A stretch of 64,000 bases of DNA from assembly GCF_009735625.1 (NCBI RefSeq), contig NZ_CP046244.1, positions 2,852,001-2,916,000 of the forward strand, written 5' to 3'. The translations under genes and the position numbers were made by a program. The notes beneath the pieces are model-generated. The model saw only the letters and a program-made list of their open reading frames with translations. It searched no databases and was not told the origin of the DNA. Of the stretch, positions 19,564 through 26,244 are shown piece by piece. The DNA is from Moorella glycerini (GTDB lineage Bacteria > Bacillota > DSM-521 > Neomoorellales > Neomoorellaceae). Position 1 is the first letter of the stretch; every line of letters starts with the position of its first letter.

Positions 19564-19590
19564 ATAAAAATAAACCGGTGCCTGCACCGG
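19564..19590 (-). terminator. Terminator of the CopZ-like gene
   Basis: On the minus strand CCGGTG-CAGG-CACCGG is followed by TTTATTTTTATT. The stem begins one base after the TAA stop of the extended (selenocysteine) reading frame, but 62 bases after the TGA, which fits the longer frame better. Confidence 0.85.
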
Positions 19591-19591
19591 A

Positions 19592-20059
19592 TTATTTGTT
19601 AGCACGCATAGCTAATCCCTGGGCAATCACCGATTGCACCGCCGGGCTACATCAGGTTCCGGCCGGGTTTTTGGTAAGGCAGTCATGACCGGCATTAGCA
19701 CCCGTATGTTCCCGGATGTCCTTTAAATTGTGGCAGCATTGCCTGGTTACTATGTGGTCCAATATCTCACTATCCGTAACGTTATTACAGTAGCAGATTA
19801 TCCGGGGCGATTCTTCTTTAAACCAGACCGGCACGCGGACATTTTCCTTGGTAAATACGGTACCATTATCGCTATAGTAGACAACGTTACATGATGGTGA
19901 CAGGCATAAATTGTACCGGATATCGCTAAAAGAAGCCGCTACTGCCGTATTAAGTAAACTAGCTACCGTTATCCCCGGTACTTTTTGCCCCTTTGTACCA
20001 CAAACCGGGCAAGCCGTGGTAGCTTCCCTGCCTTTACCACCGCAGACTTCATGCGTCAT
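19592..20059 (-). CDS. CopZ-like iron-sulfur metallochaperone, probable selenoprotein (TGA at 19652-19654 read as Sec)
   Basis: A cysteine-rich protein related to the N-terminal part of Archaeoglobus CopZ: a zinc-type segment (CPVCGTKGQKVPG near residue 17, CLSPSC near 52) followed by a BFD-like [2Fe-2S] domain starting at IICYCNN. It should bind iron-sulfur and perhaps deliver copper or another metal in the cytoplasm. Conventional reading stops at TGA after KNPAGT (135 residues). The frame continues past TGA as CSPAVQSVIAQGLAMRANK to TAA, 155 residues with Sec at 136. In this family the expected C-terminal pattern is KNPxGxCC, so the TGA replaces the first of two cysteines. A hairpin resembling a bacterial SECIS follows the TGA, and the terminator sits right after the TAA. 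No copper ATPase or heavy-metal domain is adjacent. Start ATG after AGGGAG. The family assignment is fairly sure; Sec is inferred. Confidence 0.8.
19617..19654 (-). promoter_or_regulatory. Candidate bacterial SECIS element with its UGA codon
   Basis: Directly after the in-frame TGA (19652-19654) the minus strand folds as GG-T-GCAATC-GGT-GATTGC-CC: a perfect 6-base-pair upper stem (19632-19637 with 19623-19628), loop GGT (19629-19631), a bulged T (19638) and two further G-C pairs, extended by CCC/GGG. The GGT loop begins 20 bases after the TGA. A short stem with a GGU-type loop and a bulged U matches the layout of the E. coli fdhF SECIS. Confidence 0.75.
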
Positions 20060-20087
20060 TATGAGTACTCCCTTTCTTATTTAAGTA

Positions 20088-20146: not shown

Positions 20147-20281
20147 TTATTTATTTTCCGGGCCCCGTTCAGGGTCAATAATAACCTGGTTGCCGCGGAT
20201 ATGATGAAGCTCCCTGGCCCTTACCTTTGAACGACGGTACTGATTGGGGCCGTTACGGCTGAGTTTAAAACGCCTGGGCAT
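20147..20281 (-). CDS. Small basic protein, 44 residues, unknown
   Basis: The protein begins MPRRFKLSRNGPNQYRRSKV and ends RGPENK; it is strongly basic with many Arg and Lys and no hydrophobic segment. The ATG follows AAGGGGGGGAAGAG, one of the strongest ribosome binding sites in the window, which is the main evidence that it is real. No family is recognised. It lies 87 bases upstream of the CopZ-like gene on the same strand and may share its transcript if the intervening hairpin is read through. Confidence 0.6.
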   Translation of the reverse strand: MPRRFKLSRNGPNQYRRSKVRARELHHIRGNQVIIDPERGPENK

Positions 20282-21878: not shown

Positions 21879-24800
21879 TTAAGAGAGTTTGGTGACTTCT
21901 ACCCTGGTATCGAGCTGGCCTGGTGAACCGCCAATGATATCATTCACTGCGCCACCTGGAACAGCTGGGTCCAGCCGCAGGAGGGCATTATAGTTAAATC
22001 CTGTCCCCCGGCCGGGAGCATATGACGCTTCCGGCTGCCCGGCCAGCCATGGCGTGTGGCCGTATGGTTTCACGGCCGGTACCATTTTACCATCAATGGT
22101 TACGGGCCGGGAACCGTAGGCGGTATGGCCGTAATTATAACAGGTGCCGACAACGCCGGGACGGATTCTGGCAGTGACCAGTACCTGGCCTTTCATCTCA
22201 AAGCTGGCGGAACGGATTTTGACGCGGTCACCGGTTTTCAGTCCCCGGGCCGCGGCGTCATCAGGATGCATCCAGAGGACGTTTTCGGATGCAATTTCCC
22301 GCAACCAGGCAGAGGAAATATTCCGGTGGGTGCCAATATGCCTGGCCTTCCAGTTGATCAGGATAAGGGGTAGACCGTCTTTGTCCAGGGTTTCGCCGTT
22401 ATAGAAAGAAGGTATCAGAATCCGCGGCAGGCCATCCAGGAGACTGCCATCATAAGGATTCTTCCCCCTGGCCACAGGCTCATGGTAGAAATCTGCCTGC
22501 TGGGCCAGCTTATATTTGAGCAGGCCGCCTTCATACTCGTGGCCTGGAGCCTCAAAGCGACCGCCACGGTTCAGGACGTAGACCACCTTGCGCCAGTGCT
22601 CTGGCTGGACGGCCTGGCGCCAGGCTGCTTCATTAAAGGCTGATCCCAGAGTTTTTTGGCGCACAGCAGTAAAAAGGGCTACTTCCTGGTCACTGGCATC
22701 GGGTACCGGCTCGGGTCCATCCAGGGCTACATTGGCCACCACCTTCAAGAAGAAGTCTTCACTTCTGTGCAGGGCGCTCCCGTCGGCAAAGGCCTTCTCG
22801 CCTACACCGGGTAGTCCCAGGGCTTTAAACAGGTCAATATAGACATCCTCCACAGGCCTTGGTTCCGGGAAGACCCGGACTACAGGCTGTATGATGTGAC
22901 TTGATTTTAATGGCTGGTTGGGGTAAATGGTTTCCAGGCCCCAGCGCTCCAGGTAGGTCAGGTCCGGCAACACGTAATCAGCGCACATGGCCGTTTCGCT
23001 TAAGACCACGTCGGAAACTACCAGCAGGGGTACTGCTTTCTGGTCCAGAAGAACATCCCGCTGCCATTCACCACCGGGGAGGGATAATACCGGTGATATG
23101 CGGTGAATGAACAGGGCCTGGATGGGGTAAGGATACCTTTCCTTGGCGCTGGGGAGCACCTCCTGGATGACGTGGGCCGTAAAGGGAAACCACGGCCTCC
23201 TGGCCGGGTAGCCATCTCGCTGGAAAAGGCTGGTCTTTTCATAGGCTATCCCGGTACGGGCCAGGGGAATGCCCCATGCCTTCCTCGCCTTGGGTACCGT
23301 CATCAGATCGTAGGCACCTTCCAATTCCTTAAAGCGGGCTCCGGAACTAAGACTCCCCCCCTGCCAGTCGTAATTGCCGAGGAGATGGTTCAGGCAATTA
23401 ATGGCACGGATGTTATCATAGCCGTTGACGTGCATGGCCGGGCCGCGGTAGGAGATGATGGCTGCCTTCTTGCCGTGGGAGGTAAATTCCCGGGCCAGTT
23501 CCTCAATCACTCGAGGCTCAATGCCGCAGATGGCGGCATACTCCGCCAGGGTCTTTTCCATAACCCGCTCCCGGAAAAGGGTAAAGACCGACTTAACGCG
23601 GATGCCGTTGATTTCCCTGTCAACTTCCAGGTCGCCGGCTGTTGCCCGGTCATGGGGGGTCGGGACACCATCCTGCATAACCACGTACTGTTCGGGGGTC
23701 CCCAGACCAAGGTCGGCGGCTCGTAGTTTGGGACGGCCCGGTGCGGAGACATTAACCAGGTGGGTGGCATCGCTCCAGGTCGGTTCGCCATCGGCCCGGG
23801 CCGCGGCCTGGTTGGGGTTTTCCAAATACTTCCTATCAAAACGTTCTTTTTCAATAATCCACCTGGCCATACCCAGAGCCAGGGCGGCATCAGTACCAGG
23901 TATAATTGGTACCCAGCGATGGGCCTTTTCAGCAATGCGGCTTAAACGGGGATCGATTACTACCAGTTTCATACCGCGCTGGAGGGCATTGATGATCCTG
24001 GGTGCCAGCCAGGTCGGGCCCTTGTTGGCTACCAGGGGATCGGTACCCCAGATGATGAGGTACTCGGTGTAATCTATATCAGCGTACATTCTATCTTTCT
24101 TCTTGGGGCCGCTGAAGGAACGTATATTCCCCTGGACGCCGCTCTGGCCACAAACGCCGCCGTGATGGTAAAAGTTGATACTGCCCAGGCAAAGTTTCCA
24201 GAGCCTATCCTGGATGAGATCCCGCCGGTCCCCGGCCATATTTACCACCTGGTTTACCCTGGGCCCCAGGTCTGGATGCCTGGTGTCAATGAGGACATCT
24301 TTATAACGCCGGTCAAATTCCTCCCAGGGCATCTGGCCTTTTTCGACTTTATCCCAGTCAGCCATGACGGGCTCCTGGGGCACATAGGCCACCAGGGAGC
24401 GGAGGCCGGGGGTTCCCAGGTCGGGGCTTCCTTCCAGGATCTCTTGCAGGGCCTGTTCCCAGGTAATGGTCTGGAACTGGCCGCTACCGCGCGGCCCTAC
24501 CCGTTTCAGGGGTTGGCGCAGGCGGTAACGGTCATAGGCTATCTGGATACCGGCCTGCCCTTTCAGGCAGGTACGACCGCCTCTGAAACTACGTCCTCGA
24601 GTAGCCACATCGCCGTTACCCTTGGCGGCTTTCTCGGGCGGTGTGTTATAAGGGATAGGTCCGAAGGGAACGGTATTCAGCTGGCTATAGGGGTTACCCG
24701 TAATTTTGCGGACCATTACCCCTTCCGACGTTTCCTGCACCACGGCCTTGATGGTGCAGTGGGTATTACATTGTTCGCAGACGGTGTAAATAATACTGTC

Positions 24801-24989
24801 GGCCCCATAATCACCGGTGGCTTTACCTGTACCGTGGTTTTGCGGCGGGATCCACAAATGGTCCAGGCCTGCGGCCAGGGTGTCCGAACTGCCCCCGGCC
24901 AGCAGGGCCATAGCCGCGCCGCCCGCCGCCAGGCTGCCGGCCAGGAAGTGGCGGCGGGTTATTTTTTTACCCCCCTTTTTTTTACTCAT
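21879..24989 (-). CDS. Tat-exported molybdopterin oxidoreductase, tetrathionate/polysulfide reductase type catalytic subunit
   Basis: A 1036-residue Mo/W-bisPGD enzyme of the DMSO-reductase superfamily acting outside the membrane. The N-terminus is a Tat signal (TRRHFLAGSLAAGG) followed by the [4Fe-4S] motif CEQCNTHC with a last cysteine in GGRTCLKGQAG. GGVCGQSGVQGN near residue 300 is a candidate for the metal-ligand region, and the C-terminal molybdopterin domain ends near residue 1000. Length and the Fe-S plus NrfD partners fit TtrA; thiosulfate, polysulfide or selenate reductases are related alternatives. The ATG at 24989 overlaps the NrfD stop by 8 bases; an upstream frame inside NrfD lacks the signal peptide at its start and is rejected. 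Last gene of the operon. The substrate is not shown by the sequence. Confidence 0.88.
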   Translation of the reverse strand: MSKKKGGKKITRRHFLAGSLAAGGAAMALLAGGSSDTLAAGLDHLWIPPQNHGTGKATGDYGADSIIYTVCEQCNTHCTIKAVVQETSEGVMVRKITGNPYSQLNTVPFGPIPYNTPPEKAAKGNGDVATRGRSFRGGRTCLKGQAGIQIAYDRYRLRQPLKRVGPRGSGQFQTITWEQALQEILEGSPDLGTPGLRSLVAYVPQEPVMADWDKVEKGQMPWEEFDRRYKDVLIDTRHPDLGPRVNQVVNMAGDRRDLIQDRLWKLCLGSINFYHHGGVCGQSGVQGNIRSFSGPKKKDRMYADIDYTEYLIIWGTDPLVANKGPTWLAPRIINALQRGMKLVVIDPRLSRIAEKAHRWVPIIPGTDAALALGMARWIIEKERFDRKYLENPNQAAARADGEPTWSDATHLVNVSAPGRPKLRAADLGLGTPEQYVVMQDGVPTPHDRATAGDLEVDREINGIRVKSVFTLFRERVMEKTLAEYAAICGIEPRVIEELAREFTSHGKKAAIISYRGPAMHVNGYDNIRAINCLNHLLGNYDWQGGSLSSGARFKELEGAYDLMTVPKARKAWGIPLARTGIAYEKTSLFQRDGYPARRPWFPFTAHVIQEVLPSAKERYPYPIQALFIHRISPVLSLPGGEWQRDVLLDQKAVPLLVVSDVVLSETAMCADYVLPDLTYLERWGLETIYPNQPLKSSHIIQPVVRVFPEPRPVEDVYIDLFKALGLPGVGEKAFADGSALHRSEDFFLKVVANVALDGPEPVPDASDQEVALFTAVRQKTLGSAFNEAAWRQAVQPEHWRKVVYVLNRGGRFEAPGHEYEGGLLKYKLAQQADFYHEPVARGKNPYDGSLLDGLPRILIPSFYNGETLDKDGLPLILINWKARHIGTHRNISSAWLREIASENVLWMHPDDAAARGLKTGDRVKIRSASFEMKGQVLVTARIRPGVVGTCYNYGHTAYGSRPVTIDGKMVPAVKPYGHTPWLAGQPEASYAPGRGTGFNYNALLRLDPAVPGGAVNDIIGGSPGQLDTRVEVTKLS

Positions 24990-26244
24990 GGGATACCACG
25001 CTCCTTTCATCCACTGGCTCCATGGGGAACCAGTTAATGAGAAGGGTATATAAAAGGGCACCCAGGCTGATAATACCGGTGGCAACCAGCCATTCGGCCA
25101 GGTTGGGGACATAGTAACCAGCGGGCAAGCCGGGTAACAGCGGCGGTATAAGCGCCGGTACAACGATATTGAACCGTACGGCCAGGATTCCCACATCTAC
25201 CAAGGCCGCAGCTAGAACCTGAGCCCATACGGACCGTGCTGTGACCGGATAAAAATAGAGAAAAAGAGGAACAACCGCCCCCAGGCCCAGCTGGACACCC
25301 CAGTAAGTCCAGGCAAAGGGGCCGCCGGTCATAACCTTTAATGTGGCCAGTTCAGCTTCTTCCAGGCTGTAAAGCCCGATAAGGATTTCAAAGAACTGTA
25401 AGCCCAGGTCCACCAGCAAAAAGGCGATCATGAGCCCGGCAAGATTTCTTACCAGGGCGGGGTCGCTACCTGGCTTCCCCTGCCGGTGGCGCAGGGCGTA
25501 GATAATAGTAAGGAGCGCGGTACCCGAAACCAGGGCCGAAATGACGAACACGACGGGAAAGATGGCCGTATTCCAGTAAGCCCGGGCCTTGACCACGCCA
25601 AAAAGGGCTCCTGTACCTCCGTGGACGCCAAAGATGGCAATGGGGATACCGAGGATGCCCAGGATCTTCAGCCAGGCGGCGTCACGCCCGGCGCTTCGTG
25701 GGGAGAGATCCCTGTATCCCAGGGTAAGGAAACCGGCCAGGACCCCTCTGAAACCTTTTTCCTGGCTCCTGTACACCAGGTCGCGGCGCAGGGAAAAATA
25801 GAGTTCAGCCATTAAGAGGAGGACATAAAGTACATAAAACCGGATTTCCCACCCCAGGATGCTGGTCCAGTTCCAGTATATCAGGGCATGCCAGAACCGT
25901 TCCCAGTGTCCCAGGTCGAAAAGGATGAAGGTCATGGCCACGGCCATACTGAGTATGGCCACCAGCAACGCATCCCGGGCCACCTTTTCGAATTGTTTGA
26001 AACCGAAGACGGAATTCAGGGTTGAAAGCAGGAAGGCGCCCGCGCTCATGCCGACGAAATAAATGTAAAAGGCAACCCAGGCTCCCCACGGGGTGGTGCT
26101 GGTGAGATAGGTAGCAGCCAGGCCATGGACACCACGCTGGACGGTGCCGTAAAGACCTAACAGGATCCCGACCCCAAGTAAACTGTACCAGAGGGTCTTG
26201 CCGGGGTTTGGGGACACAGAGGGGGAAACCGATGGTACTGCCAT
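24982..26244 (-). CDS. NrfD/PsrC-type membrane quinol-oxidising subunit
   Basis: A 420-residue integral membrane protein with about nine to ten hydrophobic segments, of the NrfD/PsrC/TtrC family. It anchors the reductase and passes electrons from the quinone pool to the Fe-S subunit. WGAWVAFYIYFVGMSAGAFL near residue 50 and GPFAWTYWGVQLG near residue 310 are typical. The ATG follows AAAGGAGG. It lies between the Fe-S subunit (19 bases upstream) and the catalytic subunit, which it overlaps. Confidence 0.9.
   Translation of the reverse strand: MAVPSVSPSVSPNPGKTLWYSLLGVGILLGLYGTVQRGVHGLAATYLTSTTPWGAWVAFYIYFVGMSAGAFLLSTLNSVFGFKQFEKVARDALLVAILSMAVAMTFILFDLGHWERFWHALIYWNWTSILGWEIRFYVLYVLLLMAELYFSLRRDLVYRSQEKGFRGVLAGFLTLGYRDLSPRSAGRDAAWLKILGILGIPIAIFGVHGGTGALFGVVKARAYWNTAIFPVVFVISALVSGTALLTIIYALRHRQGKPGSDPALVRNLAGLMIAFLLVDLGLQFFEILIGLYSLEEAELATLKVMTGGPFAWTYWGVQLGLGAVVPLFLYFYPVTARSVWAQVLAAALVDVGILAVRFNIVVPALIPPLLPGLPAGYYVPNLAEWLVATGIISLGALLYTLLINWFPMEPVDERSVVSHE

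Follow-up and report, generated by a model that had tools for sequence, protein, structure and literature searches.

The question raised by this locus is whether a TGA within a CopZ-like gene of Moorella glycerini ends the protein or encodes selenocysteine (Sec). In the window (the whole stretch of DNA that was analyzed, 64,000 nucleotides), the candidate selenoprotein gene runs from 20059 to 19592 on the minus strand, as do all the other window features given below. Translation gave 135 codons, the TGA (codon 136, 19654-19652), 19 more codons, and a TAA (19594-19592), confirming the claim of an earlier sequence-only reading that the frame stays open beyond the TGA. The encoded product reads MTHEVCGG...KNPAGT-UGA-CSPAVQSVIAQGLAMRANK-TAA, with the post-UGA coding extension occupying 19595..19651, and the peptide across the UGA reads NPAGT-U-CSPAVQSVIAQGLAMR. 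The full-length protein would have 155 residues, with Sec at position 136. Direct reading also gave a Shine-Dalgarno-like GAAAGGGAG (20068..20076) 8 bases before the ATG, and the terminator that had been placed right after the TAA is indeed there, as a terminator-like hairpin (19590-19575) with a T-rich tail (19565..19590 in all). Upstream of the gene lies a small ORF of 44 codons (MPRRFKLSRNGPNQYRRSKVRARELHHIRG..., 20150-20281) that had no Pfam match. Elsewhere in the window (21879-26244), a large molybdopterin-oxidoreductase-like ORF precedes one for an NrfD-like membrane protein, with an apparent overlap; both were named by eye.

We looked for selA, selB, selC, and selD in the genome, and all four were found. 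The selC gene scored 73.6 bits as tRNA-Sec and was called tRNA-SeC with anticodon tca by ARAGORN, selB matched at 388.6 bits, and a selA-like gene, named by its sequence and position and not by a profile, directly adjoins selB. The selD gene (405 bits) carries an in-frame UGA of its own, in the context CSSG-U-AAKMG (L119, 1915-2960, minus strand; G000 C1, about 34.0 kb). Judging from this codon, the SelD of this genome is probably itself a selenoprotein.

Both the TGA and the frame downstream were kept in all 11 of the 11 genomes of the genus, at protein identities of 68 to 97% (97% for M. mulderi and 89% for M. stamsii among the named relatives). In G007, a copy from a metagenome-assembled genome (MAG), the frame is shifted upstream of the TGA. 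Beyond the stem described below, the frame varies mainly at synonymous sites (GGA/GGT/GGG, TTA/TTG/CTG, and GCT/GCC), which argues that the post-UGA extension is selected as a protein. To collect wider homologues, 398 genomes of the phylum were searched with a profile. This gave 14 further TGA proteins, which belong to nine other families and all share the column of the TGA. In the Cys homologues, CC stands precisely at the place of UGA-Cys, as expected from the earlier suggestion that the TGA falls on the first cysteine of a CC ending. Across the alignment, this column is TGA throughout the Sec clade and Cys in all other homologues. In the maximum likelihood tree, one branch (support, 96/88) parts 24 Sec proteins from 27 Cys proteins, a split that fits a single Cys/Sec switch.

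A hairpin behind the UGA had also been proposed, GG-U-GCAAUC-GGU-GAUUGC-CC, and it was found as described at 19640-19621 (GUGCAAUC-GGU-GAUUGC; columns 15-34 counted from the UGA). The stem has 6 bp plus 2 bp, and the 3-nt GGU loop begins after 20 intervening bases. Taken from one sequence, this hairpin is weak evidence and would prove nothing, because its fold energy is ordinary, Rfam gave no match, and not all relatives have the bulged U. The fold of the 60 bases after the UGA is no more stable than those of their shuffles (-16.8 versus -16.7 kcal/mol; z, -0.02). As an isolated 24-mer, the Moorella hairpin has -8.8 kcal/mol, and those of some relatives have -5.4 to -7.3 kcal/mol, short of the published limit of -7.5, although that limit may concern a longer stretch. 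Scanned against the SECIS families of Rfam, the locus returned no match up to an E value of 5. As for the bulged U that had been likened to that of the Escherichia coli fdhF SECIS, it is present in Moorella but is paired with A in four relatives (G012, G288, G252, and G319b) and is no strict feature.

It is conservation that raises the hairpin above chance and, together with covariation, marks it as a bacterial SECIS (bSECIS) stem-loop. The distance from the UGA to the loop is constant in all 27 sequences that have the UGA plus the stem, and the stem codons are frozen, even at synonymous sites (Ser TCG, 27/27; Ile ATT, 27/27; Val GTG, 26/27), across lineages with about 46 to 54% protein identity to Moorella. 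A conserved Leu just outside the stem (four codons on) uses six codons. Stem pairs covary from GC to UA at columns 18-32 (G319b) and 15-34 (G024 and G172), and pair 21-29 changes from AU to GU. The observed pairing or covariation score was reached by none of 500 shuffles, and sliding the partner strand abolished the signal.

The 17-nt core of the element, GTGCARTCGGTGATTGC, occurs 23 times, once per genome in 23 of the 398 genomes, while the reversed control gave no occurrence. Twenty of these lie at the UGA of the CopZ-like gene and three in gene remnants. In the G265 remnant (L118, about 1660, minus strand), the middle of the gene is deleted, UGA included; in G048 and G306 (L116 and L117, about 2100), only the UGA-SECIS-3' end is left, after unrelated sequence. 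We considered a second selenoprotein at the last two matches and rejected it, since upstream homology is absent and both are best read as 3' remnants. A second Sec paralogue was seen in G319 (L096, about 1122, minus strand), with the compensated stem GUUCAAUC-GGU-GAUUGAAC.

Two domains were recognized in the protein. The zf_CopZ zinc-binding domain (residues 15-75, 19835..20017; Pfam PF18423; E value, 5.9e-19) contains the invariant C17, C20, C52, and C57, which would form a four-Cys zinc site. The Fer2_BFD [2Fe-2S] domain (residues 87-146, 19622..19801) was assigned from PF04324 (1.3e-5; 25.9 bits, just below the gathering score of 26), the alignment to 2hu9, and the fold, and its BFD-type site would consist of C89, C91, C127, and one of residues 136 and 137. 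The AlphaFold model (mean pLDDT, 90.7) has a confident C-terminal helix at residues 138-153 (pLDDT of about 90 or more), all of it post-UGA, and its sole strong fold match was the N-terminal domain of Archaeoglobus fulgidus CopZ (CopZ-NT, 2hu9; E value, 2.9e-10; TM, 0.72/0.85). In the alignment to this domain, U136 corresponds to C118 and C137 to C119. The fourth [2Fe-2S] ligand is predicted to be U136 or C137, Sec being either the ligand or its neighbor, so that Sec136 would lie within the cluster site or immediately next to it. A pair of cysteines, Cys108-Cys109 (window positions 19738-19733), was found in 20 of 20 Sec rows versus 0 of 12 Cys rows of alignment A3 and is a possible partner of Sec136; the MAG copy G010 reads CR at these positions.

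The label of a CopZ-like metallochaperone, given in the sequence-only reading, holds in part. The homology extends only to the A. fulgidus CopZ N-terminal domain, with which the Moorella protein shares the fold and the Zn and [2Fe-2S] cysteines, although the archaeal protein has Cys where Moorella has Sec. A. fulgidus CopZ carries a C-terminal HMA copper chaperone domain. In contrast, the Moorella protein ends after the BFD-like domain, and the Pfam search found in it no HMA domain with CXXC, the copper domain that defines CopZ sensu stricto.

Reviews already list selenoproteins of the "(2Fe-2S)-binding, copper chaperone CopZ family" in two forms, form 1 with GxUC (for example, WP_245779778.1) and form 2, the Csac_0668 family, with CU (PMC13188914, PMC9312934). 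Given that the Moorella protein reads AGTUC, it fits form 1, a selenoprotein class already listed and not new in kind. Along the same lines, it has the PF18423 domain, the PF04324 match just under its gathering score, the CopZ-like fold, and the same domain type (cd10141, CopZ-like Fer2_BFD), and no difference was noted from WP_245779778.1, against which it was set by description only. In the papers that we searched, neither a SECIS nor a structure or genomic context had been published for form 1, and the main text of the 2008 GOS paper cited for this form does not mention copper or 2Fe-2S. The all-Cys family NF047645 (CopZ_Nterm_CC, putative iron-sulfur cluster-binding metallochaperone) is also homologous and gave 85.8 bits against a cutoff of 100. 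Since the Moorella protein scores under the NCBIfam cutoffs, it may be annotated 20 residues too short.

Could the TGA still be an ordinary stop, with a 135-residue protein ending at KNPAGT and the downstream bases conserved otherwise, e.g., as transcript structure? The 135-residue ORF is complete under table 11 and the hairpin energy is unremarkable, but the frame after the TGA is conserved at the protein level and varies synonymously outside the stem, the Cys homologues continue past this column, where they have CC, the genome encodes the complete Sec machinery, and a shortened form would lose the invariant C137 and the C-terminal helix. We consider an ordinary stop very improbable. Another identity is suggested by the best NCBIfam match, NF045877 (E value, 1.3e-39), by which the protein would be a form 2 selenoprotein of the Csac_0668 family. 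This family is homologous and has the same domains; however, the Moorella protein reached 130.7 to 135.7 bits against a cutoff of 190, the tree puts the two groups in separate clades, and the Sec of the Csac_0668 family is in an N-terminal CU, with CC as the C-terminal pair, where Moorella has VCGG and UC, respectively. Six relatives at or near the NF045877 cutoff have the N-terminal UGA (PCU, SCU, NCU, RCU, and GCU). With the score under the cutoff, the Sec at the other end, and the separate position in the tree, membership in NF045877 was rejected, and it is the least probable of all the readings weighed here. The N-terminal in-frame TGA of the Csac_0668 group was seen around position 1500 in L126, L129, L131, L136, L137, and L138.

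A genuine selenoprotein gene, on the other hand, is highly probable, a confidence that applies to the selenoprotein claim and not to function. The proposal of Sec at position 136 is supported by the TGA/Cys column of the homologues, the conservation of frame and hairpin, and the sel genes, and on such sequence evidence we infer that selenium is incorporated at UGA 136. SelB would bring Sec-tRNA(Sec) to this codon, directed by the stem-loop just downstream, and translation would continue to the TAA, yielding a protein of 155 residues that has the fold of the CopZ N domain.

With regard to genomic context, the Moorella gene is flanked by lexA on one side and by an AP endonuclease or citrate-synthase-like gene on the other, and no arsenic gene adjoins it. 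Among relatives, the Sec gene is beside ArsD, ArsA, and ArsR in G143; in G252, it has a thioredoxin/DsbD-like pair on one side and ACR3 with ArsC on the other, the thioredoxin being of the ArsE type, and G180 is similar. ArsP-like permeases are found near it in G352 and an ArsR-type gene in G137. Arsenic-resistance operons of this kind (ArsD/ArsA/ArsR; ACR3/ArsC/ArsE-type thioredoxin/DsbD-like) hold the Sec-clade loci L080, L085, and L086. Other clade members (G288, G318, G319, and G172) have unrelated neighbors. No copper ATPase was recognized among the neighbors examined, in the window or in relatives, and the titles and abstracts returned by the literature search included no paper about a CopZ-arsenic-selenoprotein link.

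In the selenoprotein, the selenol/thiol site beside the cluster, probably with the clade-specific Cys108-Cys109, would reduce or bind a soft metal or metalloid, and arsenic is our best guess as the target because of the operons of relatives. The protein might then be a redox or binding partner in arsenic or organoarsenical resistance, a selenol/thiol-iron-sulfur protein from which Ars proteins would receive reducing equivalents or As(III). The ars neighbors of relatives (G143, G252, G180, and G352), taken as raw occurrences, and the extra Cys pair of the Sec rows point to such a role, but the Moorella copies lie outside such operons, which makes it an extrapolation from relatives, and the members with unrelated neighbors also argue against it. 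We regard it as plausible, if somewhat short of probable. A copper chaperone resembling that of A. fulgidus, which would reduce and deliver copper, Sec serving as an improved copper or redox ligand, is in keeping with the fold and sequence match to 2hu9 and with the zf_CopZ match. However, the copper label comes from homology to a single domain of a single archaeal protein, the absence of the HMA domain makes copper less likely, and no copper ATPase was recognized nearby, so we hold copper delivery to be unlikely. Because several relatives sit in arsenic-resistance operons, a metalloid role is no less likely than copper delivery, and the rest of the likelihood falls to a general redox or cluster function. 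Only tentatively, and with more doubt than for the metalloid role by itself, we propose that a CopZ-NT-like clade turned into a Sec-dependent metalloid (arsenic) redox/chaperone component, with Sec in or beside the [2Fe-2S] site and an added Cys pair, while its sister clade has Sec at the other end.

The locus adds, for an acetogen genus, a well-supported Sec at or next to the site of an iron-sulfur cluster, and the conservation of its SECIS is documented with unusual clarity. Since the UGA of form 2 is N-terminal and the UC of the Moorella protein is C-terminal, the two listed forms, which belong to separate clades, have their Sec toward opposite termini. The presence of part of the form 1 clade in arsenic operons gives this uncharacterized family a testable role.
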